Shown here in pieces: positions 24,808 to 54,724 of a stretch of DNA of 64,000 nucleotides (positions are counted from its first letter, which is position 1; each line of letters begins with the position of its first letter). Under the pieces are notes generated by a model that had not been told where the DNA came from, did no database searches, and saw nothing but the letters and a program-made list of their open reading frames with translations. Position numbers and translations under genes: made by a program. Origin of the DNA: Hemileia vastatrix (taxonomy: Eukaryota > Basidiomycota > Pucciniomycetes > Pucciniales > Zaghouaniaceae); NCBI GenBank assembly GCA_030280995.1, contig JASXTE010000013.1:14287501-14351500 (forward strand). Direction: 5' to 3'.

Positions 24808-25681
24808 TGTGGTGGTATTCTCAATAACACCCACTTCAGGAACTGGAACAGCCTCCACTTCCACAACTGGGAAAACTAGTTTAACCTTAATTTATTATAA
24901 TTATTCACCATAAAAAAAAACCTGGCACCTGATATCAGGTGCCAATCCCTATATTTGACTTTATTCAATTTCATATCAGCTGTAATTCTTCTGGAAAGCC
25001 TAAACCCTTAACAATGAGAACACTAGCTCATGCAAAATCAAATCAAATTTACTTTTTTAATCAAAACTGAATATAAGGATAGGCACCTGCTAGCAGGTTC
25101 CACTTGATTTTTTGTGGTGAGTAGTTTATATAACCCAATACTAAAATCTGAATAATACTTAAAATTAAATTATTATCAAAAAAGTTAGGATACTCTTTCA
25201 ATTCCAGAGGACCGTGAAATAGCAGTTGTGCTTCTATAGGTTGTTCTGCAGCAATCTCTTTACTACTGTTCAATAACACAATTCACCACCTCTACTTCTT
25301 CATTTTCATGAGGGATAATCAACTGTAAAGTTTTGTCTCAATCCACTGGATTGGCTGTATCTTAAAACTCATATGTAGCCAATTAAATGACCTCTTCTTC
25401 AATTGGGTACTTATTTTTGGCCTCACTTGTTAATGCTTGAAAGGAGAGACTGTAAAAACCTCAATACCAGGAGCTCAATACATTTTTTGTCTGATAATAT
25501 AAGGAAGGGACCTAACTAGGGATGATAAAAGGAGTCACCAGATTGTCCTGAATCTCCTGAATGACAAACCAGGGCTCAAAATTTGACCAGTAAATGTGGG
25601 GCATAAATTTATTTACACCAAGATCTTTAATCATTTTTTCACACTTCACCTGTTGCCACTGACAGAATTCAACTTTCTTTT
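24808..25681 (-). pseudogene. Zinc-cluster-type gene, 3' part, interrupted by two insertions
   Basis: Minus-strand frames read VEFCQWQQVKCEKMIKDLGV (25679-25620), YWSNFEPWFVIQEIQDNLVT, then acidic segments (LIIPHENEEVEVVNCVIE) and, past a MITE, FPVVEVEAVPVPEVGVIENT ending at a GTAAGT donor (24808). The FCxWxQVxC block matches the antisense gene at 26587-27457 (FCRWRQVTC), and VEAVP matches its second exon, so this is a relative. Its 5' part lies at 34018-34157, beyond the inserted retrotransposon. The two halves differ by one base in frame, and stops are frequent. Function is unknown; zinc binding is inferred from the Cys pattern. Confidence 0.5.
24906..25119. mobile_element. MITE with palindromic ends, copy 1
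   Basis: A 214-bp element that is the reverse complement of 48736-48948. Ends are CACCA and TGGTG; the terminal inverted repeats are about 45 bp. Within each end lies a near-perfect palindrome (CACCTGATATCAGGTG on the left, ACCTGCTAGCAGGT on the right). No target duplication is evident. It interrupts the zinc-cluster-type pseudogene. It has no coding capacity and I cannot assign a superfamily. Confidence 0.75.
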
Positions 25682-26490
25682 TGTCACTGGATGACCTACA
25701 CACAAGGCCGAGGGTGTTCCTGGGAAAGTGAGATTGGAGGAAAGAGTTTAGAGACTTCTTTGAAGTACAGAGGAAATACTCAAGGAAGTGATTTGAAGAT
25801 GAGTTGAAGGAAAAGCTTTTTCTTCAAGATATGTTCAATAAGAATCTTAATATAATTTAAAGGTAAAATTAATATTCTTAGGGTCTCACAAAGGGTTGGA
25901 AATTCAATAATCAAAGATTTAAGTTTTAGAAATGATTACTGAGAAAATAAGGAAATGTACAATAACAATGATTTAACCTGAAGCTTTACCACTATTAAAT
26001 ATATATATGTTTTATAATTTAATTCTAAAGAATTTCAAACCAAAATCCCAACCCTTTTATATCCACTACTCCTCCTCACATTGACCTCATGTCCATCCAT
26101 TATTCCGCACACCACAGACCTCCAAAAAACACCTGTTACACCTGGACCCTCCTCACTAACATCCGTTAAACCCTTGAACCTCTACTAACCATCCCGTCCA
26201 TGCTCACTACCCCTGTTAATAACCCACAGACACACAATAAACCTTTAGCGGAATATTGCATTGGCCGTTGCGCTCTGCGTCGCCTATCAAAGAAAAAGAC
26301 TGAACACACTGTTGAGAGATTAACTAATTTAGATTTAAAGTTTTAGATTAGCACGGTTGAATAGTGAGTATACAAAGGAAAGTTGCAATTGCTATGTAGA
26401 ATCACTTCTGCACTTTGAACATGGATTTAGACCTCATTATTATTGATTTAATGAGCTGCTTTTGCCTCAAGTGTCACGTGGTGCATGACA
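25682..26490 (-). repeat. 3' LTR (809 bp)
   Basis: Direct copy of 33209-34017, same length, with scattered substitutions. The inner edge is followed by a palindrome ATGCCCGGGCAT rather than a clear polypurine tract. Confidence 0.9.
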
Positions 26491-26586
26491 GATGCCCGGG
26501 CATAAGACGCAAGCTCTGTTGAGCATGAGAACACATTCTTCCCACACTATAATTTTTCCCCTACTTCTTCTTTAAATAATTTTATT

Positions 26587-27457
26587 ATGTCTAACTGCCC
26601 CACTCCCATTCCCAAGCCTCCACACCCCAAAGCTGATGGAAGTGTTGTTACCCGCCAATATACCCACGCTTGCACGGCTTGTGCGTCAAAAGCATGGCCA
26701 CACAAGGCCCTCGCCAGAAATGCAAATTTTGTCGCTGGAGACAGGTAACCTGTGATTCCCTTATGAAAAACGGGGATATCGAGAGGAGTTTTACGGGGAC
26801 TAAGTACTGGGTGATCCCTAAGACCAAAGATGTGGTCTGGGATAATTGATCAGTGGAAGAAGAGGAAAATTAGGTCAAAGATACTGTGGTGACTTGGGTA
26901 TCCCAGACCACAGACCAAAAACAAGGGGTGGAAGAAGAGGTGGATGAGGATGAGGTTACCATCTCGAGCTTTCCTCCAAAAAAACAACGGATGATCATTG
27001 AGGATGATGATGAGGAGGAGAAGGGAGTGACAATAGAGGTCACCCCGAAGCTGTTTTTAGAACCCAATCCTGTTTTTGAGGTGAGTTTTACCTTTTTCTT
27101 GTTTCAAGTTTTTTAGTTTATACTGATGACTATATGTTATAATTTTAGAATTCGGATGTCATTGAAGAAGCTCTGATTGTGGAGGCTGTTCCATTGCTGC
27201 CAGTTGAGGCCAGTCAACCGGCAGTTGATTTGAAGGAGGAGGATGAAGAAACCCTTGACCAGGTGTGGTCAAAGAAGCCTTGGCAGGGTCAACAAGTTTG
27301 ATTCCTCAAAAACTTAAGTGACAAGATTGACAAGATTGTTGATGCCGCCTCCTTTGATGTGGCAGAAGAGTTACTTGAAATTGGAGAGGAGGAGGTATTT
27401 GAAAAATGCAGAAAGGTAATAAGGGTGGTGTTGGAGAAAATGCAGGAGAAGATTTGA
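26587..27457 (+). pseudogene. Antisense zinc-cluster gene inside the gypsy element (2 exons)
   Basis: It lies on the strand opposite to gag-pol, with its ATG 97 bp from the inner edge of the 3' LTR. Exon 1 (26587-27080) encodes two Cys groups, THACTACASKAWP and QKCKFCRWRQVTC. The second is C-x2-C-x6-C as in Zn(II)2Cys6 domains; the first has C-x2-C with its third Cys lost near a frameshift around 26695. An acidic region (EEEVDEDEV, EDDDEEEKG) follows. The intron 27081-27148 has GTGAGT...TTTTAG borders and joins in phase. Exon 2 encodes VEAVPLLPVEASQP, then, after an in-frame TGA near 27300, a helical tail (LSDKIDKIVDAASFDVAEEL) to the stop at 27457. In-frame TGA and TAG also lie near 26848-26875. 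A DNA- or RNA-binding role is inference only. Confidence 0.6.
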
Positions 27458-28386
27458 AATGGGTAGGGAAAAAAGAAAAGAGAAAAGCAAAAGTGAAAAA
27501 AAAAGGTAGAAAGCAAATGTAAATTGTTTATTTATTTATTCTATTGGTTTTGTTGTTTTAATTAAAATTTTATTATATGTTTTTTAAGATTTTGAAAGAG
27601 AAAGAAAGAAAAAAATTTTTGAATGAAATTTTTGTTTTGAACTTTGAAAGAAGAAAAGAAAGAATATTTAAATGAGGATTTTTAGTTTAAGTTTTGAAAT
27701 GCAAAAAAAATTTAAGTAAAAAAAAAATAGTTGATTGAAAATTTTGGTTTTATGTTTTTAAATCAAAATTTAATGAAAAAAAAGAAAAAGGAAAAATGTT
27801 ATTCATGAAAATTTATTTGAGGTTATTTTTGAAGTTTTGAGAAATTTTGGTTATTTGAAGAGAAAGGAGAAAAAAAATAGTTTTGAAAAAAAAAGAATTT
27901 GAAAGAAAAGAGTAATTTGTTCAAAAAATTTTAAAAGAGAGATTTAAAGGTGGAAGTGAAGTTTGAGAAAGGTTGTCATATTGAGTTCATGAAATATTTT
28001 GATAGTTCAAAGAAAGAGAAATAAGGAAAAAAATGTATTTTGAAAAGATAAAAAAATTTTGAAAGAAGAAAAGAAAGAAAATTAAAGGAATTATTGATTC
28101 TTAAGATTTTATTTTAATGAATTGTTTAAGTCTTTTTTTTTTGTTATTTTTTTTTTAATTTTAATTTATTTTTATTTTTAATTTATTTTGTTTTATTTAT
28201 TTTTAAAGAAGGTTGAAAGAGAAGAAGAAAAAAGGAAACAGAGTAATGATTTTTAGAAGAGAAGAAGTTTTAGATTTTAAGAAAAGAAAAGAAAAGAAAA
28301 GAGAAGAGAAGAGAAGAAAAATAATAATAAAAGAGAGTTTTAAGGTTTTGGTTTTAAAGGATATTTAAGATGAAAAGATTTTAGGA
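27458..28386. repeat. Purine-rich low-complexity tract (GAAA/AAAG-rich)
   Basis: Over 900 bp the plus strand is dominated by A and G with T runs, including simple stretches such as AAAAGAAAAGAAAAGAGAAG (28280-28310). It separates the chromodomain of the gypsy element from its antisense gene. I see no coding capacity. Confidence 0.7.
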
Positions 28387-29640
28387 ATTCAGGGTCATTA
28401 GAAACATTGATGGCTGGTTCCCAGGATGTTTTGCCTGAGTCATTGAGGAAGCCTTCCCATTCCACAAGGTATTGAAGTTTCCCCTTGCACATTCTTGAAT
28501 CAAGGATATGGCTTACTTCCCACTCTAGATGGTCTTCTACTTCGACCAGTTCTGGAGGAGGTTGGTTCCTGCCCAGGTATGTTTCTCAAGCCAGTTCCAG
28601 GAGAGATACGTGGAAAACAGGGTGAATAGCCTGCCATTTAGGAAGTAGAATGAGTCGAAATGAAGTTTTAGAGCCTTCGGAGTAAATTTTGAATGATCCC
28701 AAGGGCTTTTCGGCCAGTTTCTTAGATGGTCGAGTTGTTTAAATGTTTTGTGTGTTTAGCCATACTTTGTCGCCTGGTTTAAAGGAAGGAGCAGATTATC
28801 AATGTTTGTCGGCCTGTTCCTTGTACCTTCGAATTGCTAATTCCAAGTTTGATTTAAGTTCTTCTTGGAGTCGTGATATGGTTCGAAGATAATGTTCCGC
28901 AGGATGACTAGTTCCTACATGTATTGAGTTGAATCGAGGATGTCTTCCATAAACATTTTCAAAAGATATTGTTGTGTCGAAGAATGAGTCAAGTTATTTT
29001 AAGCCAATTCAGCCAATGGTAACCATGTGGTCCAATTGTCTTGTTGGTAACTGACATACATTTAGAGGTATTGCTCAAGGATTTTGTTGACCCTTTCTGT
29101 TTGCCCATTGGTTTCAGGATGATAGGCCATGGAGATATTCCTCGTGATATTGAGTTGCTGACACAATTGAGTCCAGAATGTGGATAAAAACAATGATCCT
29201 CTATCTGAAATAATATCATTAGTTAAGCCATGTTTGGAAAATACATTTTCTAGAAACAATTTTGACAAATCTTCTGCTGTAGCAGTAGTGGTGGTTTTTA
29301 TGAAAATAGACATTTTTGAAAATCTATCTACTATTACTAATATAGCATCAAAATTATTTGAAAGAGGAAGTTGAGAAATAAAATCCATTGATAAAGATTC
29401 CCAAGGTTTAGAGGGAATAGGAAGTGGTTGAAGCAACCCATGCTTTTGGTGAAGGGGAGCCTTATTCCTATTACATTTGTAACAAGATCTTATATAGGCT
29501 TTGATCTCTCTGGTCATTCCTGGCCAGAAGAAATCCCTTGCTATTAACTGGTTGGTTTTATCAACACCAAAATGACCAGCTAATGGAGAATCATGTCGAC
29601 TATTGAAAATCCATAATTTTATTTAATTGTTGTCGGGTAT
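28387..29640 (-). pseudogene. Integrase and chromodomain of the 8.3-kb element
   Basis: The minus strand gives the H2C2 region (HFGVDKTNQLIARDFFWPGM, SCYKCNRNKAPLHQ), the core (WESLSMDFISQLPLSNNFDA with the first Asp, TNDIISDRGSLFLSTFW with the second, MAYHPETNGQTERVNKILEQ with Glu), a broken GPY region, and a chromodomain near 28390-28510 (EVSHILDSRMCKGKLQYLVE, TSWEPAINVSND). The core at 29062-29517 is open and all three catalytic acids are visible. Downstream, frames change around 29000 and 28740. Confidence 0.85.
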
Positions 29641-29739
29641 GACTACTTTACCTTCGAAGACTAATAGACCGGATTAAATACTAAATTTTTTAGCACTTTG
29701 CTTCAAGAGTATTTCGTCTTTTAACCCTAAACAATAATT

Positions 29740-31160
29740 TTAATTTGACTGAGCTTCGAGGATGTTGGATAGTGGATTTTGAAAAGATTGAATTGTCATC
29801 GAATTAAGTTGATGAGTTGTTAACATTGATTTGTTGAAGATTGATTTCACATTTGCTAGGTTCTTGTCAGCAAATACGTCCCCCCACTGTGTGTAAACAG
29901 CATCCCAATGTGACAGGATATCTGGGCAATAGGAAATAGAGAAAGGAAATTCAGACAGAAATTCAGCCCACCTGGCCTGATGCCTGGTTAACACTTTGGA
30001 AGACATAAATTATTTCAAAGCATTATGGTCAGTCAGAATCTGAAAAGGACTATCCAGGCTGAGAAGAAAAGAGCACCATTTTTTAAGACAATGAATGATA
30101 GCTAATAGCTCTTTGTCATGAATTTCATAATTTAATTCTGCCGCAATAAGTTTGCAGGACTCAAAAGTAACAGGATGAAATAATTTCATTTCAGGATTGA
30201 ATTGAGAGATGACCCCTGCAATAGCATAATTGCTAGTGTCTGTCTCAACTATTTTCGAAGCAGAAAGATTAAAATGACAAAGAATAGGAGCTGTGGTGAG
30301 CGCAGTCTTCAATGCTTTGAATTCCTTTTGTGCTGTATGAGTAAAAACAAAAGGAATATCTTTTCTAAGAAGAGAAGTAAGATTAGAGATAGTTTTAGAG
30401 TAATCTTTGATAAATATTCTATAAAAATTTGCAAAACCCAAAAATTCTTGGAGGGATTTAACAGTTTTGGGCTCAGGCCATTCTAGGACTTTTTGGACCT
30501 TTTTGTCATCCATGAATAAACCATCAGTGGACAGCATAAAACCTAAAAAATCAATAGATTTAAGATGGAATTAGCACTTATTGTGCTTGGCATAGAGACC
30601 GTGATCCCAAAGGCAATTTAGAACCTGTCAAACATGATGAATATGTTCATCAACGGTCTTTGAGAAAATTAAAATATTGTCTAAATAGACAACAAAAAAT
30701 TGTTCAACAACATCTTGAAAGATGTTATTAACAAAATTTTGAAAAGTAGATGGTGCGTTACACAATTCAAAAAGGTATGATTAAGTATTCAAAACTACCA
30801 AATCTAGTCCACATTGCAGTCAGTGGTTCATGACCTTCCGCAATGCAAATAAGATTATAAGCGCCTCTAAGATCAATTTTAGAAAATAAATTAGCACCAT
30901 TGAAAAAGGTAAGAAGCAATGACATAGGGGGAACAGGGTATTCATTCTTCTTAGTGACTGTATTGAGCTTTCTATATTCAACACACAACCTAAGTCTACC
31001 ATCCTGGGTCTTTACAAAAAGAACAGGGGAGACGATTTACTGGCTCTGATGAAAACTTTGGCTACATTCTCTGCAATGTAGTCTCAAAGAGCTTGAGATT
31101 TGTCCTTTGACAAAGAATAGACAGGACCTGCCAGAGGTACTGAACCTATTAACTCTATTT
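29740..31160 (-). pseudogene. Reverse transcriptase-RNase H of the 8.3-kb element
   Basis: RT: MCVEYRKLNTVTKKNEYPVP, LFSKIDLRGAYNLICIAEGH (first Asp), and VVYLDNILIFSK near 30690, where the second Asp of YLDD is Asn, so catalysis is lost. RT connection and RNase H follow in a 175-codon open frame (30537-30010): FLGFANFYRIFIKDYSKTIS, VETDTSNYAIAGVISQFNPE (Asp), NYEIHDKELLAIIHCLKKW (Glu), FQILTDHNALK (Asp). The end (RHQARWAEFLSEFPFSISYC) is in 30006-29740. Confidence 0.85.
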
Positions 31161-31740
31161 AATGGTCATAGGGTTGATGAGGTGGTAACTTATCAGCCTT
31201 GCAGATTGAGAAAAAATCAAGGAAATCATGATAGATTTACAGTAGAGATTATTTAATGGCTTCAACATTGATTTGGTTGTCCTCATCTTCTTTGAGAGAA
31301 TCTGTCAAGGGAAGACCAGAATTGTGAGAGCATGATTCAACTACTTTGAGGCAATTTAAATCCTCTTTGAGTGAAGTGATTGAGCTAAAAGGGTTAGCCA
31401 ATTGCTCATTTAGAGAATGATCAGATGCTTGCAAGTCATCTGGCAGAGATTTGTCCTCTAGCAGGACATTGTCAGGCGGGTTTTTTAACTCCCTATTGAC
31501 CTGCATTGAAGAATCAGAAATATACTTAGCATGTGGGGTGATCAATACCCATGACCAATCAATTTCAGGATTCCAATGCATTAAAAAGTCATGGCCAAGA
31601 ATGGTATCTTACATTCTTGGGGTGTCCAAGACTGACAATTCCCACTCAAATGGGGGAAAATTCAGAAAGTTGAAAACCCATAAAACTTTCTTACTTACCC
31701 AATATTTGGGTTCCTCTGATTCGACCAAATAAATTGGAAT
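31161..31740 (-). pseudogene. PR-RT linker of the 8.3-kb element
   Basis: An open stretch at 31581-31249 encodes an acidic linker (NPPDNVLLEDKSLPDDLQAS) that joins the protease core to RT. The adjacent 31590-31740 encodes the protease tail in another frame (opposite strand of the plus-strand open frame seen there). Confidence 0.55.
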
Positions 31741-32133
31741 TCAGTCAATATCTTTGAATTTCAGCTTTAACTTCTTGGCAAAAGATAAACTGACAAAATA
31801 AATTGAAGCTCCAGAGTCTATAAGACAACTGAAAGGGGTATCCTCCTTAAAAAGAATGAATCTCATGCGGTTTAAGGCAACTCCAGTTCTTAAGCCATGG
31901 AGGTTCTGTGCACTGGGAGAGATAAGATGGTTTGCTTTGCACACAAGTAAACTATCTACTAGGTTTTTGACTTTAAAAGTAGTACCTTCTCTTTCCTTCA
32001 ACTTCACACAATCTTCTAGCTTGTGCTTACCCCCACAATACATACATATCCCATTATCTGCTTGTCTCTTCCTCTCAGATTCTTTAAGTTCCCCTTTTGG
32101 GTCCAATACCTTACTGATATTGCCTGGGGTCAA
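31741..32133 (-). pseudogene. Nucleocapsid knuckle and aspartic protease
   Basis: A 130-codon open frame with a short zinc knuckle CMYCGGKHKLEDC (C-x2-C-x3-H-x4-C), one residue shorter than the usual CCHC spacing, then FSCLIDSGASIYFVSLSFAK, the DSGAS protease active site. NC binds genomic RNA; PR matures the polyprotein. The frame ends in a stop before the linker, so PR and RT are not continuous here. Confidence 0.8.
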
Positions 32134-33152
32134 GCCTTTTGGTCAAAGTTTGTCCTTTCCCTTATTGGGTTTGGATTTAGTTGGCCGTGGGTGTGAAGAA
32201 AGTCCCGATTTAAAATTAGGCCCTGAGATTTGTTGGCATATCTACAATGTTGTAGTTGTCCTTGGTAAACGCTGTTGAGTTCGAGAGTTTGATACATTAA
32301 ATCCTTTAAGGTAGTCATCTTCTGACCATGAAGATTTAATTGATTTAGAATCCTTGAAGGAAGTCCCTTTTTGAAATGATACTTGAGGGCAGCATCATTC
32401 CAACCTACTCAAGTTTGAAGCACTCTGAAGTTCGAGATATATTCAGAGGCTTTACAATTATCACTCATGCGGAGGAAATCAAGTTCTATTTCCGCTTTGT
32501 CAGTTTCATTAGGGTTACCGAGCAATGTAAAGAGTTGGTCTTCGAACTTTTCCCAGTTATTGATAAGTAAGTGGGTTTCTGTCGAAGAGAGCATGAGAAG
32601 ATAAGGTTTGAACCATCTGGCTTCTTTTCCAGCTAAGAATGAAGAAGCGTAAACAAAATTTGATTGGTTGTTATTGAATGTTTGAGGGTCATTATGGAAA
32701 AGGAGCTTGCAGGTTTGCAAGAAGGGGTGAAATCTGTCTGGGTGTTCTCCATCAAATTTTTCAGGAGATTTCATGGAAGGAGTTTTGAATTTTGATCCCT
32801 CCGAAGATGTTGGATTTGAAATCGTTTTCATGAAAAGTCTCATGAAGTATTCTAAAGAATTAGATGGTCCAGGTTCCAGAGGTTGACCAGAAGGGTGAGT
32901 AGCAGGGGCAGACAGTGCCTCATGCATTGTATCCTCTCCTTCTGCTTCATTGCTAGAATCATCAAAATCCTGGGGGATGTCTTCCACAGATTGGACTGAG
33001 TGTTTCTGTTCCCTAATTTCAAGAGGTTCCAGAGAGTGATTGCAGGAAACAGGCTGTGTGGCTGTTGGCCTGCCTCTGGCGCGAGCCCTAGTAGTAGCAC
33101 CCGTAGGAGGAGTGCGTTGAACAGGTGCCATTTTTAAAGAATTTAAAAACAC
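32134..33152 (-). pseudogene. Gag of the 8.3-kb element
   Basis: A 247-codon frame (33152-32409; the more likely start is MAPVQRTPP at 33131) with a basic N-terminus (TTRARARGRPTATQP), an acidic linker and a capsid domain (SPEKFDGEHPDRFHPFLQTC, SSFLAGKEARWFKPYL). It continues after a frameshift near 32405 with ALKYHFKKGLPSRILNQLNL and stops near 32130, just before the knuckle frame. The capsid pattern is that of Ty3/gypsy Gag (retrotrans_gag). Confidence 0.8.
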
Positions 33153-33208
33153 CTGAAAAAGGATGTAGTAGTGCGAAAGAATGAGAACTATGGAGAATTA
33201 AATTATAC

Positions 33209-34017
33209 TGTCACCGGACAACCTATGCACAAGGTCAAGGGTGTTCCTGGGAAAGTGAGATTGGAGGAAAGAGTTTAGATACTTCTTTGAAGTACAGAGG
33301 AAATACTCAAGGAAGTGATTTGAAGATGAGTTGAAGGAAAAGATTTTTCTTCAAGATATGTTCAATAAGAATCTTAATATAATTTAAAGGTAAAATTAAT
33401 ATTCTTAGGGTCTCACAAAGGGTTGGAAATTCAATAATCAAAGATTTAAGTTTTAGAAATGATTACTGAGAAAATAAGGAAATGTACAATAACAATGATT
33501 TAACCTGAAGCTTTACCACTATTAAATATATATATGTTTTATAATTTAATTCTAAAGAATTTCGAACCAAAATCCCAACCCTTTTATATCCACTACTCCT
33601 CCTTGCATTGACCTCATGCCCATCCAATATTCCGCACACCACAGACCTCCAAAAAACACCCGTTACACCTGGACCCTCCTCACTAACATCTGTTAACCCC
33701 TTGACCCTCCACTAACAATCCCGTCCATGCTCACTACCCGTGTTAATAACCCACAGACACACAATAAACCTTTAGTGGAATATTGCATTGGCCGTTGCGC
33801 TGTGCTTCGCCTATCAAAGAAAAAGACTGAACACACTATTGAGAGATTAACTAATTTAGATTTAAAGTTTTAGATTAGCATGGTTGAATAGTGAGTATAA
33901 AAAGGAAAGTTGCAGTTGCTATGTAGAATAGCTTCTGCACTTCAAACATGGATTTAGACCTCGTTATTATTGATTTAATGAGCTGCTTTTTCCTTGAGTG
34001 TCATGTGGAGAGTGACA
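33209..34017 (-). repeat. 5' LTR (809 bp)
   Basis: Pair of 25682-26490. Immediately 3' of it, on the minus strand, the sequence GTATAATTTAATTCTCC follows instead of a TGG-type tRNA primer site, so the priming mechanism is unclear. Confidence 0.9.
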
Positions 34018-34157
34018 CTTTTTTGCACCTTTTGTGGAAGTACTTTTGACACAATACCATTTTTGGTCAATGCATTTGAAGCAGGGGATCCAAACTCACA
34101 CATCTGAGCAAACCTATCATTCATTGGGTGGGGTGAAGTTTGTTGTGGATTGGTCAT
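34018..34157 (-). pseudogene. Zinc-cluster-type gene, 5' part
   Basis: The minus strand opens with MTNPQQTSPHPMNDRFAQMC and reads on to LPQKVQK, where the retrotransposon cuts it. The continuation is at 25681. A Pro/Thr-rich start followed by a Cys-containing segment is the arrangement seen at the start of 26587-27457. The fragment is short; assignment rests mainly on the 3' half. Confidence 0.45.
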
Positions 34158-34214: not shown

Positions 34215-35305
34215 TGTGGTCTTCCAACATTGGAAGGGGCCTTTGTTGTGTTGTTTGGTGCTGTTTGTGCATGTCTTAATTGGCATCTGTTAAAGAATTG
34301 TGTGCTTTTCTGGTTTTATTCCCTGAATAATGGGACTGCGAGTATGTGGGTACTATAATTGGATAGCCCTGGTTTTTCTCTATATTTCATGTCTTGATAA
34401 TATTTTTATATTCTAAGATTTAAGGGGTCATTTCCTCATTTTTCAGTTACAAAAGATAGCTGTTTAATTTTGTTTTTTGTGTTTTACGGGCTAACCTTAA
34501 GTCTTAGGGTTAAGTGCTTAGTGCCATTAGATAGGGCTAATTTAGCTCTATATTTCATGTCTCAATGTTTTTATAGCGTAATTTTGTGTTTTAAGGGTTT
34601 GAGTAGTTGTAGTGAATTTTTCTAAGTAGATTAGATGTTTTTATTGGTTTTCTGGCTTCAGGGAGGCTGGGCTGCTTCAGGCGGCACCTCTGACATTGGG
34701 CGGCCCGCCCACCTCTGTTTTAGAAGGTTGGGGAGCGCTTCTGGAGGGTTTTTATTCAATTTGGCTGGTACAGGCGCCAAATTTGTTGGTGTGCATGGGC
34801 TCTTAGTTAGTGGTCTGTGTGTACATACTGAATAAGACAGTTTGGGGCAACTTTAATTATTATACAACCATCTGGATGCGATATCCTTGTTCCTCACTCA
34901 GTTTTCACTGTTTTTTTGCCACAATTGGCTGTGTTTGTTGCAAGGTTAGTTCTTCATTTAACTCAACTTTAGCAACAGGTTCTCTGGTATAGTCTTGCAA
35001 GCCATGTCAAGTATTATTTCTGTCTCTGGTGTGGATTTGCAGCCTACATCAAGTATCTTTGCTTTCTCTGGTGTGGGCATTGGTCTACATTTCAGTTATT
35101 TGGTCTGGTAGTTTGTCTGGGGACTACTTTCTTGGCTCATCAAGCAGTCAAGTGTGTTGAAAAAGGGGCTTTAGCAAACAGGAACCAACTTACTTTAGCA
35201 AGTAAATCTCACTCTATTTTTCTAAAGGGACAGGGGTTTTTCTCTCTGGTTTTTCTCCAACTCCCTTGGTCAAGGCCTATAGCTAGTACTATAGGATTGT
35301 CTACA
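34215..35305 (+). repeat. 5' LTR (1091 bp)
   Basis: Begins TGTGGTCTTCCAACATTGG and ends GGATTGTCTACA. It contains a GC-rich patch (about 34660-34735, GGGCGGCCCGCCCACC) that stands out in AT-rich surroundings and is also present in the other LTR copies. A short open frame over this patch exists in both LTRs but has no recognised motif. Confidence 0.9.
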
Positions 35306-42029: not shown

Positions 42030-42235
42030 TGTGTTGAAAACTTTTTTTAGAAGGTACCCATGGGTGGGGCTTCTAGATTTAATCTTGGCAAGTGTAGGGG
42101 TAACTGATGGGCTGGCTGCTCTGTAGAACAGTTACCCCAGATTGTCTGTTTCCAACCCTTTCTCTTAATTTAGTTGAACCGTAGTATTGGTTTCTTTTAA
42201 CAGGTTTTAGTCCTCTATGACTTTAAACTGGAATT
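42030..42235 (+). repeat. 3' noncoding hairpin unit A
   Basis: The unit starts with AGAAGGTACCCATGGG and TTGGCAAGTG, then a hairpin: GGGGTAACTG (42097-42106), 22-nt loop, CAGTTACCCC (42129-42138), and ends about 75 nt later with the short motif ATGACTTTAAACTGG (42217-42231). Units B and C repeat this. Confidence 0.8.
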
Positions 42236-42289: not shown

Positions 42290-42495
42290 GTTGGATGTTG
42301 TGTTTTTGTTAGAAGGTACCCAGGGGGGCTTCTAGATTTTATTTTGGCAAGTGTGGGGGTAACTGATGAGCTGGCTGCTCTGGAGAACAGTTACCCCAGA
42401 ATGTTGTTCTCAAGTCTTTTGTTTTTCCTAGTTGAATTCTAGTTCTGTAGTTTATTATTCAGGTTTCAAGTCCACTATGACTTTAAACTGGTTTG
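42290..42495 (+). repeat. 3' noncoding hairpin unit B
   Basis: Same layout as unit A: stem GGGGTAACTG at 42356-42365 and CAGTTACCCC at 42388-42397, loop of 22 nt, then the motif ATGACTTTAAACTGG near 42476-42490. Confidence 0.8.
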
Positions 42496-43438
42496 GGACT
42501 GGCTTCTTTATCATTGGTTTTTTTGGGTTGGTGGTGGATCACTGGTAGTCTCCTATCATTTTCACATATTGGAGGGAGCCCACCCAGTGATCATTTCTGT
42601 GGACTGGACTTTCTCTTACTAGACCTTCTCTTAATCTGGACCATCCATGGAACTGGACTTTATTTGATTTTTTTATTTATGATTTTGCTAGATAGTAGTT
42701 TCAGATTATTTTCTTTTTTCTCTTTTTTTCTTTTAATTTTTTATGGGGGTTTTTAAAATTATAAAATCAAAAATATAGGGTGTTACCACATCAGGGCACC
42801 TGGATGTGGGCAAGCATTGGTGGGGAAAGGCTCATCAATCGGCTGGGCAATGCTATTTTATCATTTTGTTTTATTTTATTTTTATTTTCATTAAGGTCAT
42901 TTTTTATTTTTTATTCTCATTATTACTCTTAATTTATGTTTCTTATTTCAAATCATTTAAATTATTTAAGGTGTATCAACATCAAGGTGCACTTGGATGT
43001 GGGCAAGGTATCAGGGGATCAGCTCATCAATTGGCTGGGGGATACCATTTGTATTATTTTTTATCATTTATTTTATTTCATTTATTTTTATTTTATTAAT
43101 TAATTTTTAATTTTAGTATGTTAGTAGACTGTAAAAAAAAAAATAGAATTTATAGTTATTAATTGTTTTTTATTATTTATTTATTATTATGTTTTTAATC
43201 TTTTTTCAGGAGCTCATTTTCTGGATGATGAAGTTTCTTGAGGCTGGTCCGGATTATGATGTTGTTTTTGTTTTTTGTTGGGGTTGTGGGAAGCACTGTG
43301 TTCTTTGAAGTGCATCCTTCTGGAGAGATTATATGGATTATAATGGGCAGGAATGGGTTTGGATGGAAGTTCAGAAGAGGAAGAAGAAGAGGCAGGAATG
43401 GATTTTTTGAAGGTGTGCTTAATGATCCTAGAAATCTT
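42496..43438 (+). other. AT-rich 3' noncoding stretch of the element
   Basis: Contains two copies of a short block around CATCAATxGGCTGGG (about 42830-42850 and 43023-43040) with CATCA(G/A)GG/TGCACxTGGATGTGGGCAAG before them (42789-42815, 42979-43005). T-rich runs fill the rest. No gene seen. Confidence 0.5.
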
Positions 43439-44760
43439 CTAGTGATTGTCCAATAGTTGTTTCCTCAAGGTTTTCTCAAAGTCATTTAAAGGTCCATGGA
43501 GGGCAAAGGCTTTCAGCATGTTTGAACATGTGGTGCTGAGGTGTTGTTTCATGTCTCCATAATCCAGGGTCAAAGAAGTTTCTAAAGGTTGTCCAACTCC
43601 AATAGTAGATTCAGGAGGAGGGGTGCCAACTAGACAAGAAGAATTGGATCAGTAATTATTTTTGTTGAAGAAATTGGCTGAATTAATGTGGTACTTACAG
43701 ATTCGAAGCTCATCAAATTTGTAAGCGGCCGGAATTTGGACTTCTGAAGATTTTGGAATGGTGATAGTAGGTGGATAAATCAGGGAAAGATATGGATTCT
43801 CTTGGTCTTCCTCTGAAAGGTTTTGAGAAGGTGAACTAGGAGGCTGATGTTCCTGGGACCTAGTTGGAGTAGCAGGCCTGTTGTTGCTGTTGTTAATATT
43901 TCTGCTTGATTCAGTTGGATGGGGTGCTGGTGATGGAGTACCAGGGTTGTTATAAGATTGGGCAGGAGAGGGTGATCTGGAAGTGGATTGATCTCTTCTG
44001 GATGGAGATTTTGAAGGAATGGAACTGTCAGAAGAATAGTTGGATGACAGAGGAGAGGTGTAGTTTTGTTGCCTTAACTGGGGTCAAAGTTGTTGCTTTG
44101 GTGCAGTGTTGGGTGCTCTGGTGTCTTCCTGGGGTCCTCTGGCAGGTCTCCTAGAAGTTTGGGAAATTTGGAGTTTTTGGACCTTGGAAAGGTTGGCTGC
44201 ATTGCTTTGGGAGCAGTGGGAGGTGGCTGCGTGGAGTTGTTTTTGTTGATTGGAGGAATTTGGCTGTTTTCTGGTTGTTTTTGGAGGTTTTGAGCCTGAT
44301 TTTCACTGTCTAGTGAGGCGGGCGGGCCGTCCGACGTTGGCCATGCTGCCTGGACACGGTCTAGCAGCCTAGGAGCTAATTTAGTAGAGATAAAAGCTGT
44401 TTCTTGGGTAGTTAAAGCAGGCCTTTTTGGGAGAGTTCTGGAAACTGAGTTCCTGGATTTTCTGGATGGTGCTGAGGATAAAGATGAAGAGGCTAGACCA
44501 AGCTCTAGGGATCTGTTAGGGGATCTGGAGAGGTATTTATGAGAAGGTGAAGGAGGAGGAATAGGGTAGTTGGCATCTCTGTCACATTTCTTTATTTTGG
44601 AGTAGCAAGAATCACAGGCCCTGTTGTAGAATTTGGCTTCAGGAGTTGGAAGAGTGAATGTGCAACGTCTGCACATGTGGATGCACTGTTTCCAGGCATA
44701 GTCCTTGGGAGCAGTGAAGCAAGGAAGATTGGAGGGGTTAAAATCAGGGGATCCAGCCAT
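43439..44760 (-). pseudogene. Antisense gene B: cysteine-cluster protein, 2 exons
   Basis: It lies opposite to gag-pol, between integrase and the 3' LTR. The ATG at 44760 opens 228 codons: CIHMCRRC, a 15-residue gap, then CDSCYSKIKKC (C-x2-C-x6-C, as in the second half of Zn(II)2Cys6 clusters), and a long Ser/Pro-rich region. A frameshift near 44080 leads into SSNYSSDSSIPSKSPSRRDQ and further Pro/Ser-rich sequence up to a donor at 43699/43698 (GTAAGTACC). The 69-nt intron (43630-43698) ends TTGTCTAG; exon 2 (43439-43629) joins in phase and encodes TPPPESTIGVGQPLE and a helical tail (DFEKTLRKQLLDNH) ending TAG. About 415 residues in all. The clean intron argues that this was a real gene. Partner and target are unknown. 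Confidence 0.6.
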
Positions 44761-44904: not shown

Positions 44905-45275
44905 ATTCTGTTAGTCCATCAAGACTCTAAACTGAAAAATCTATGGTTTCAAGATTAGTCCATCAAGACTTTAAACTGAACATTGTGTTAGTCCCCCAAG
45001 AATTTAAGCTGAGGATTTTTTGATGGTGTAGTCCCCCAAGACTATAAACTGAGGAATGGGTTTTTGTTGTTGGAATGGGTTTGAAAGATTGGCGGAGGGT
45101 ATCCACAGGGGGAGCCTCTGAATTTAGCAAAGGCAAGTTTGGGGGTAATTGATGGGCTGGCAGCTCTATTCACAATTACCCCAGAATGTTAGTTTTTTTG
45201 TGTCTTAATGTGGTTGATCTCCAGTTCTGGGTTTATGATTTAGATTTTTGAGTCCCCCAAGACTTAAAACTGAGG
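44905..45275 (+). repeat. Short-motif cluster and hairpin unit C
   Basis: Five copies of a motif of the form TAGTCCxxCAAGACTxTAAACTGA lie at about 44911, 44956, 44990, 45030 and 45250; two more are in units A and B. Hairpin unit C is at 45090-45275: stem GGGGTAATTG (45142-45151) and CAATTACCCC (45173-45182). Compared with units A and B one C-G pair is replaced by T-A on both sides. Confidence 0.75.
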
Positions 45276-45333: not shown

Positions 45334-45975
45334 TCAAGTACTAGTGGATTTACAGAGGGAATCAAGAGATGAAATGATGTGTTCAGAATTATCCTTGAAC
45401 TGGTGAATGAGGTGTCTTCTGTTCTCAATGTCATGTGGATCTCTAGCAGGAGTGGATTGGAAGTAGTTTAGCAGGAGGTGTTTCTGTTGTGATGTGTGTT
45501 GATAGAACTTGGCCTTAATTTTGGGCAAGTTCTTTGGTGTTGTTGGTTCAATGGATCCTACATTGTTATCATCACTGTCAGAAGATTAAGGAACTGAGAA
45601 GTCATCATTTTTATAAAGTGGAAAGAGTAAATGGAAGTTTTTACCATCAGATGGACCAGGGATGGTGGAACTTGTTGTTTTAGTGGTTTTTCCACTCTTC
45701 TGGGAAGGGTGTAGCTTTTTGATTAATCTGGGAATCAAGATGGATGGCCCAGATCTTTTGGTGCTGGTAGAAGATGGACCAGGTTGAGGTGGAGGTGAAG
45801 CTGTTGCGGAAGATAATGGACCAGGTCTGTGGCAGGTCTTCTTTCTGGATTGGCAGACATCACAGGACGTTCTGTATGGATGTACAGGAGGTGTGATGGT
45901 GCAAATTAGATTATTGTCAATGCAGTATCGGCAAGGACCCATTTCAGAGGCAGATTTGGGAAGAAGGTTAAACAT
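45334..45975 (-). pseudogene. Antisense gene A: Zn(II)2Cys6-like protein
   Basis: The ATG is at 45975, only 49 bp from the inner edge of the 3' LTR, reading away from it and opposite to gag-pol. The N-terminus (MFNLLPKSASEMGPC) runs into six Cys spaced C-x2-C-x6-C-x12-C-x2-C-x6-C, exactly the fungal Zn(II)2Cys6 binuclear cluster pattern, with basic residues in the second half (CDVCQSRKKTC). A Pro/Ser/Lys-rich middle follows. One in-frame TAA (45586-45588) interrupts it, after which the same frame continues (SSDSDDNNVGSIEPTTPK) to a helical, His/Gln-rich end at 45334: 213 codons in total. In the family such clusters bind DNA; here the role is inference. Confidence 0.65.
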
Positions 45976-46023: not shown

Positions 46024-47115
46024 TGTGGTCTTCCAACATTGGCAGGGGACTTTGTTGTGTTGTTTGGTGCTGTTTGTGCATGTCTGAAGTGGCATCTGTT
46101 GAAGAATCGGGTATTTTTCTGGTTTTATTCCATGAATATTGGGACTGCGGGTATGTGGGTATTATCATTGGATATCCCCGATTTTTCTCTATATTTCATG
46201 TCCTGATAATATTTTTCATATTCTAAGTTTTAAGGGGTCATTTCCTCATTTTTCAGTTACAAAAGATAGCTGTTTAATTTTGTTTTTTGTGTTTTACGGG
46301 ATAACCTTAAGTCTTAGGGTTAAGTGCTTAGTACCATTAGATAGGGCTAATTTAGCTCTATATTTCATGTCACAATGTTGTTATAGCCTAATTTTGTGTT
46401 TTAAGGGTTTTAGTAGTTGTAGTGAATTTTTCTGAGTAGATTAGATGTTTTTATTGGTTTTCTGGCTTCAGGGAGGCCGGGCCGCTTCAGGTGGCACCTC
46501 CAACGTTGGGGGGCCCGCCCGCCTCTGTTTTAGAAGGTTGGGGAGCGCTTCTGGAGGGTTTTTATTCCATTTGGCTGGTACAGGCCCCAAATTTGTTGGT
46601 GTGCATGGGCTCTTAGATAGTGGTCTGTGTGTACATACTGAATAAGACAGTTTGGGGCAACTTTAATTATCATACAACCATCCGGAGGCAATATCCTTGT
46701 TCCTCACTCAGTTTTCACTGTTTTTTGGCCACAATTGGCTGTGTTTGTTGCAAGTTTAGTTCTTCATTTAACTCAACTTTAGCAACAGGTTCTCTGGTAT
46801 AGTCTTGCAAGCTATATCAAGTATTATTTCTGTCTCTGGTGTGGATTTTCAGCCTACATCAAGTATCTTTGCTTTCTCTGGTGTGGACATTGGTCTATAT
46901 TTCAGTTCTTTGGTCTGGTAGTCTGTCTGGGGACTACTTTCTTGGCTCATCAAGCAGTCAAGTGTGTTGAAAAAGGGGCTTTAGAAAACAAGAACCAACT
47001 TACTTTAGCAAGTAAATCTCACTCTATTTTTCTAAAGGGACAGGGGATTTTCTATCTGGTTTTTCTCCAACTCCCTTGGTCAAGGCCTATAGCTAGTACT
47101 ATAGGATTGTCTACA
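46024..47115 (+). repeat. 3' LTR (1092 bp)
   Basis: Same sequence as 34215-35305 with scattered changes, including the GC-rich patch (46475-46530, GGGGGGCCCGCCCGCC) which here keeps CpG sites that have changed in the 5' LTR. The antisense genes point away from this LTR, so an antisense promoter in it is possible. Confidence 0.9.
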
Positions 47116-54103: not shown

Positions 54104-54724
54104 CTAATCCCCATACTTTTTGGATCTAGATAAAGTTTTTTTAAATCGAATAACTTTACCTTCTTTCTTTACCTTATTGATTCTTTGTATCAACTTATTA
54201 CTGATTTGAAATGAGCAACCGAAATGAGTGAAATCTTGACAGGATTTCAAACCAGGAGGAGCTTTGGTCGTTTGATGATTATCCTTAGAAGAATTCCAAA
54301 TAGTTTCAATGATACCATTTCCCAAACCAAAATCAATGATGCACCGGTGGTCTGGAAAATATAAACCATGTCCTTTGATTTTAGCTGGAGATGGTATTGG
54401 GTGGCCAGTTATCAGATTGATATATGAGAATATTCCAAAAGTAAGAAAATTGGCATCATTCCTATCGATATGAATCCTATTGTGGAATCCAGAATGAGTG
54501 ATAATAACATTAGAAAATAAAAGATATTCGTGGCTGATATCTTCCAATTCGGAGTCACACCAATTCGGTATTCCAACTTTGGTTGCAAGTTCATGATTTT
54601 TTTCAAATGCTTTATTACAGAGCTTGTTGAGTTGAAAAGCAAGAAAAGAGTCAAAGGAAGGTAGAGTGTCCCATAAGCTAAAATCTTCATCTTTTTGAGC
54701 TTTAGTGATATTCTTGACCAACAA
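54104..54724 (-). pseudogene. TET/JBP-like 2OG-Fe(II) dioxygenase, C-terminal exon
   Basis: An open minus-strand frame of 206 codons. SNVIITHSGFHNRIHIDRND holds H85-x-D87, the HxD iron-binding pair of the double-stranded beta-helix; LTFGIFSYINLITGHP, GHGLYFPDHRCIIDFGLGNG and IIETIWNSSKDNH follow, with His126 or His150 as candidate third ligand. This pattern is that of the Tet-like proteins expanded in basidiomycete transposons, which oxidise 5-methylcytosine in related families (established for TET/JBP). The first Met may be internal: no complete N-terminal part is visible upstream, and a splice acceptor could precede it (ATATAG near 54735). Whether it is functional is unknown; the visible frame has no stop. 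Confidence 0.65.

Follow-up and report, generated by a model that had tools for sequence, protein, structure and literature searches.

An antisense gene in a chromovirus of Hemileia vastatrix

The 64,000-nucleotide stretch analysed here, hereafter the window (Hemileia vastatrix contig JASXTE010000013.1, forward-strand positions 14,287,501 to 14,351,500), contains an 8.3 kb chromovirus on the minus strand (25682-34017). The 1.85 kb interval between its chromodomain and its 3' long terminal repeat (LTR) holds a gene on the opposite strand, running from an ATG at 26587 to 27457. The features of the element are the following.

25677..25681, no strand: target site duplication CTTTT, 5 bp, partner at 34018-34022
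25682..26490, minus strand: chromovirus 3' LTR, 809 bp, 95.06% identity to 33209-34017
26491..26586, plus strand: 96-nt gap from LTR edge to ATG, with a TATA-like and a CT-rich stretch, promoter-like by eye
26587..27080, plus strand: antisense gene, exon 1, broken (frame shift between the Cys groups, two stops)
27081..27148, plus strand: antisense gene, intron, 68 nt, GTGAGT..TTTTAG
27149..27457, plus strand: antisense gene, exon 2, one internal stop
27458..28339, no strand: purine-rich spacer, antisense gene to chromodomain
28340..33208, minus strand: broken gag-pol with chromodomain (28340-28585), from Pfam matches and the chain of open reading frames (ORFs)
33209..34017, minus strand: chromovirus 5' LTR, 809 bp, partner of 25682-26490

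Between its LTRs, which have diverged by a Kimura two-parameter distance (K2P) of 0.051, the element has the parts that define a chromovirus (Gag, protease, reverse transcriptase, RNase H, integrase and chromodomain); RNase H, integrase and chromodomain (PF00385, E 3.5e-11) score above the Pfam cut-offs, and the gag, protease and reverse transcriptase (RVT_1) pieces below them. A preliminary description of this DNA had proposed such an element with an opposite-strand gene about 100 bp from the 3' LTR, encoding an acidic middle region and interrupted by one 68-nt intron. The element itself, the 96-nt gap, the acidic middle and the intron, which is of GT..AG type and phase 0 and connects open frames, are all as it had stated. 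Its two Cys groups fare less well: the second, CKFCRWRQVTC, is present at 26721-26753, but it lies in a different frame from the first (CTACASKAWPH), and three in-frame stops follow. The frame shift and the stops make the window copy a dead pseudogene. A codon-usage score trained on the long ORFs of the window and judged against dinucleotide shuffles nevertheless exceeds the shuffles on the gene strand (z 3.4 for exon 1, 2.4 for exon 2) and gives no signal on the strand opposite to the gene (z 0.4 and 0.8, respectively). On balance, we read this feature as the local, decayed remnant of an accessory gene carried by a multi-copy chromovirus. Its small product, combining six cysteines in a Zn2Cys6-like cluster with an acidic central stretch and a C-terminal region, would act as an LTR-driven nuclear regulator of its own family.

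Recurrence of the antisense gene across the genome

The genome of origin (747,610,610 bases in 791 contigs) was searched with the antisense gene, and the best 40 of 3404 candidate places were scored. Sequence around 39 further places was fetched, 20 at 9.9 kb and 19 at about 2.2 kb. These copies were located as the best-scoring matches to the gene itself and gene-less copies were thus unsampled, so the counts do not give the fraction of element copies without the gene. The 39 copies match the window gene at 80-88%. The chromovirus LTR lies at the 5' side of the gene, in the same orientation, in 38 of them, at a distance of 66-114 nt (median 96), the remaining copy (L043) having no LTR match within 400 nt; the chromodomain is found beyond the gene, away from the LTR, in 36, and is absent from the stretch in three (L024, L032 and L037), the spacer of L024 carrying an insertion. 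The position described for aORF-3R genes, antisense to gag-pol and between pol and the 3' LTR, is therefore found in the window and in the further copies. The preliminary description had set a consistent antisense, LTR-proximal position as its test, to be failed if the hits were mostly free-standing host genes, and no such predominance was seen in the copies examined. In these copies the antisense gene is an element gene and not a chance host gene, and a captured or neighbouring host zinc-cluster gene, hit by or picked up in one copy, is a highly improbable explanation.

Coding evidence and cysteine conservation

The pattern C-x2-C-x6-C-x12-C-x2-C-x6-C is complete in one open frame in 19 of 40 chromovirus copies (39 plus the window); with a looser spacer, the full motif was present in 12 of the 21 copies of a first batch. 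When codon conservation was scored against one natural copy over the first 101 codons, the six ligand Cys codons were retained in 218/230 cells, compared to 2802/3634 for other codons (Fisher p 1.4e-12, a guide only, as the copies are related and the cells not independent). Two cysteines outside the cluster are retained in 30/39 and 15/39 copies. Among 21 copies, shared non-CpG variants are commoner at codon position 3 (p 0.037 for a minor count of at least 2, p 0.016 for at least 3). Read in the frame of another copy, the variable non-CpG columns number 15/129, 9/130 and 17/127 at positions 1, 2 and 3, and the integrase of the same copies gives 16, 6 and 19. Indel lengths in pairwise comparisons are divisible by 3 in 195 of 410 cases for exon 1 versus 350 of 1794 for the spacer, the pairs not being independent.

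A second gypsy element with antisense genes

A second LTR element of the window, referred to as gypsy 2, also carries antisense genes before its 3' LTR.

34215..35305, plus strand: gypsy 2 5' LTR, 95.05% identity to 46024-47115
43224..44760, minus strand: antisense gene B of gypsy 2, a paralogue of A with a broken frame; lower edge given approximately
45334..45975, minus strand: antisense gene A of gypsy 2, with the cluster C-x2-C-x6-C-x12-C-x2-C-x6-C and a single stop in the window copy, 48 nt from the LTR
46024..47115, plus strand: gypsy 2 3' LTR, purine tract immediately before it

The LTRs of gypsy 2 have likewise diverged by K2P 0.051. Genes A and B start with ATGs at 45975 and 44760, and their paralogy is supported by shuffling (1/1000 shuffles, 3/1000 with cysteines fixed) and by tblastn (1.2e-5). 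Gene B has a 69-nt intron (43698-43630) whose removal takes out a stop; no intron was found in gene A. The preliminary description had the same layout in two LTR families, down to the intron. Place and strand do recur (38/39 chromovirus and 6/6 gypsy 2 copies); introns were seen in the chromovirus gene and in gene B. In all six gypsy 2 copies fetched, of 149 listed, the LTR begins 48 nt from the ATG of gene A, exactly as in the window; the edge stretches of 201 bp cover the first 130 or so LTR bases, with pol outside. The 149 other matches of gene A, which with the window make up the best 150 of 11,110 candidates, show 87-94% protein identity; with the window included, 113 of these 150 are free of stops over the aligned part, in a set that favours intact copies because it holds the best-scoring matches.

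These readable frames bear on the possibility that it is the antisense RNA that matters and not a protein, by way of double-stranded RNA or small RNAs or through a block of sense transcription, the frame being incidental or a relic. Antisense LTR RNAs are able to silence elements, as in the Ty1 case cited in PMC12786077, and are also discussed in PMC7264820; the 21 of 40 chromovirus copies without the full motif in one frame agree with such a role. The stop-free frames of gene A, even in a set biased to intact copies, argue against it, as do the retention of the six ligand cysteines far above other codons and the presence of an intron with frame continuity, and we regard an RNA-only function as rather unlikely.

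One module or two

The preliminary description had further suggested that the two families share an accessory module, which either spread after one acquisition or was captured twice. The single acquisition was not borne out: no sequence likeness beyond the cysteine spacing was detected between the chromovirus protein and gypsy 2 A/B (hhalign Prob 0.6%, P 0.1), and when shuffles with fixed cysteines were compared with three chromovirus copies, 1066/2000 for A and 916/2000 for B equalled the real score (100/2000 and 320/2000, respectively, for unrestricted shuffles). A single ancestral zinc-cluster module that was gained once and then transferred between the chromovirus and gypsy 2 families would account for the same place, strand and Cys spacing with a 12-residue loop, for the short introns of gene B and of the chromovirus gene, and for weak hints, in both protein types, of swapped halves of the zinc-cluster profile PF00172 (see below). 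Gene A compared with the second Cys group of the window also leans this way with free shuffles (9/1000), but hardly with cysteines fixed (96/1000). Shared intron presence is weak evidence because none was found in gene A and because any antisense gene can retain an intron through retrotransposition. Given the profile comparison and the fixed-cysteine shuffles, we hold a single acquisition common to both families to be doubtful though conceivable. The antisense cysteine genes at the same place in both families could go back to one ancestor so old that its trace is lost, or to convergence.

A further zinc-type gene on the minus strand, running from 34157 down to 34018 and then from 25681, was cut in two by the chromovirus insertion. 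This split gene is a true homologue; its source is probably a third, related (sister) element.

The region between pol and the 3' LTR of gypsy 2 contains repeated blocks (approx. 42042-42156, 42305-42404 and 45085-45196) that flank gene B and recall the repeats of the plant element Retand. Relatives of a piece of the gypsy 2 integrase number 62, and the fungi named among them include Austropuccinia psidii, Cronartium quercuum and Phakopsora pachyrhizi (44-60%). Two relatives (P0001 and P0031) are filed as bacterial, under Xanthomonas sp. A2111 (79%) and Streptomyces fumigatiscleroticus (52%), and these rust-like records are probably fungal contamination of bacterial assemblies.

Resemblance to the Zn2Cys6 domain

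The Zn(II)2Cys6 domain of fungal regulators has the pattern C-x2-C-x6-C-x5-12-C-x2-C-x6-8-C, with the basic half first, followed by a linker and a dimerisation helix. This six-cysteine pattern is present in 19/40 chromovirus copies (with x12) and in gypsy 2 gene A. The likeness to the fungal Zn(2)-Cys(6) cluster of Gal4/Ppr1/Hap1 type (PF00172) consists in the six cysteines with spacing C-x2-C-x6-C-x12-C-x2-C-x6-C; the proteins described here differ from it in scoring below the cut-off and in the seemingly swapped order, on weak alignments, of the two halves. When PF00172 was compared with four chromovirus copies, two of them scored 11.2 and 9.7 bits; a 62-aa core of gene A scored 20.6 bits (E 4.8e-4) and another core piece 20.3 bits. 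The first Cys group aligns weakly to profile positions 16-35 in gene A and 20-37 in one chromovirus copy, and the second, again weakly, to positions 3-15 in another chromovirus copy. This is a hint, not proof, that the PF00172 halves may occur in swapped order, with the basic half second. Structure models of gene A were poor (mean pLDDT 51-52 in two jobs).

Cys clusters are also known in Gag proteins, and the product might accordingly be an RNA or particle component, such as a nucleocapsid-like protein or a packaging factor, instead of a transcription regulator. The spacing found here differs from C-x2-C-x4-H-x4-C, however, and an antisense, separately promoted gene would be a poor route to a structural protein; we consider this role very unlikely.

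Antisense genes in other LTR retrotransposons

Antisense genes between pol and the 3' LTR have been described before, in the plant elements Grande, RIRE2, Retand and PvRetro13 (PMC7264820). Contrary to the preliminary description, which knew of no fungal element with such a layout, Boty (BcGypsy1) of Botrytis cinerea carries the antisense gene brtn at this place (PMC7264820, PMC8365987). Retand and the other plant elements, which carry the gene in most copies of a family, resemble those of H. vastatrix in its place and strand (PMC7264820, PMC11963269), and Retand also shares with gypsy 2 a long, repeat-bearing region between pol and the 3' LTR. They differ in their plant hosts, in encoding TRP28 or other domains in place of a six-cysteine cluster, and, for Retand, in belonging to a non-chromovirus lineage, unlike the chromodomain-bearing element of the window. 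Boty is likewise a fungal gypsy element with the antisense gene between pol and the 3' LTR; its host is an ascomycete, and it is likened here by its described layout and not by the sequence of brtn. In the open-access literature, as covered by titles and the beginnings of abstracts, we found no fungal element reported to carry an antisense gene of zinc-cluster type, and the words 'antisense', 'zinc' and 'chromodomain' are absent from the available text of a rust mobilome survey (PMC12210899). The antisense layout is thus already known from plants and one mould, and the zinc-cluster version is new as far as the literature was searched.

The function of such accessory genes is regarded as an open question in both plants and fungi (PMC7264820, PMC11963269). 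The antisense TRP28 proteins of Retand are predicted to bind DNA and are suspected regulators (PMC11963269), and the gene23 product of Grande is nuclear (PMC7264820). A functional precedent is HBZ of the human retrovirus HTLV-1, an antisense, spliced gene at the 3' LTR that regulates its own provirus (PMC9822710). Only position, intron and domain type can be likened here; HBZ is a bZIP protein and not a zinc-cluster protein, its start sites lie inside the LTR, and its function has been demonstrated.

Proposed function

The antisense product would most likely serve as a nuclear regulator of HBZ type, expressed from the LTR. Its promoter, antisense and located on the inner edge of the 3' LTR or adjacent to it, would drive an mRNA that is spliced and made separately from the gag-pol transcript. 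The intron, lying on the antisense strand, would not be spliced from the genomic RNA and would therefore survive retrotransposition. To judge from the layout and the precedents above, the zinc-cluster protein may enter the nucleus and bind DNA, most simply the LTRs, where it could tune or de-silence transcription of its own family in a role similar to that of HBZ. CpG shows a strong depletion across the window (observed/expected 0.18), and 9/26 and 9/27 of the LTR-LTR transitions in the two elements touch CpG. As both observations fit methylation-linked silencing, an anti-silencing role appears as plausible as simple activation.

Several results weigh against a zinc-cluster regulator. At the level of coding, the full motif in one frame is missing from more than half of the chromovirus copies (21/40) and the window copy is dead. 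The position-3 excess of variants loses significance when CpG columns are included (p 0.23, 0.31) or when exon 2 is taken by itself, and it is absent from the RNase H of the same copies (17, 12 and 13 at positions 1, 2 and 3), which makes the codon-position test weak even for pol. At the level of the domain, PF00172 gives nothing for two of the four chromovirus copies, its Pfam cut-off (21 bits) was reached by none of the pieces tried, and the entire ORF of gene A (191 aa) reaches no more than E 0.38 and 11.3 bits. In a PDB search, Ppr1, CYP1 and Hap1 are matched by the second Cys group with E values no better than 1 to 7.6, a histone methyltransferase (E 0.31) ranking ahead of them, and no homologue was found among 5.8 billion proteins, the queries being decayed. 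Finally, the usual targets of the Zn2Cys6 class are CGG..CCG pairs, and these are marginal in three of the four LTRs (1 versus about 0.1 expected) and were not found in the chromovirus 5' LTR; no binding sites were found in the LTRs.

It is tempting to extend the proposal of an element-encoded regulator to separate LTR-retrotransposon lineages, each with a private antisense, LTR-driven zinc-cluster factor of swapped halves that would recognise its own LTR and either counter silencing or set the level of transposition, as a fungal counterpart of HBZ that had originated two or more times in the same position of the element. In this general form we think it unlikely to hold. Nevertheless, two families in one large genome have antisense genes with a recognisable cysteine cluster of DNA-binding type, and the conserved ligands in one family and many readable frames in the other open the idea of an element-encoded regulator to tests of expression and binding. 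This may bear on how gypsy elements came to dominate rust-type genomes.

An extra gene thought to counter silencing is also carried by TET/JBP DNA transposons of rust fungi; these differ from the elements described here in being DNA transposons, and the paper reports that no retrotransposon with TET/JBP turned up (PMC12730594). The window itself contains, at 54107-54724 on the minus strand, an ORF that encodes a 2OG-Fe(II) oxygenase domain of Tet-like type (PF20515, E 9.8e-29), as found in these rust DNA transposons (PMC12730594).
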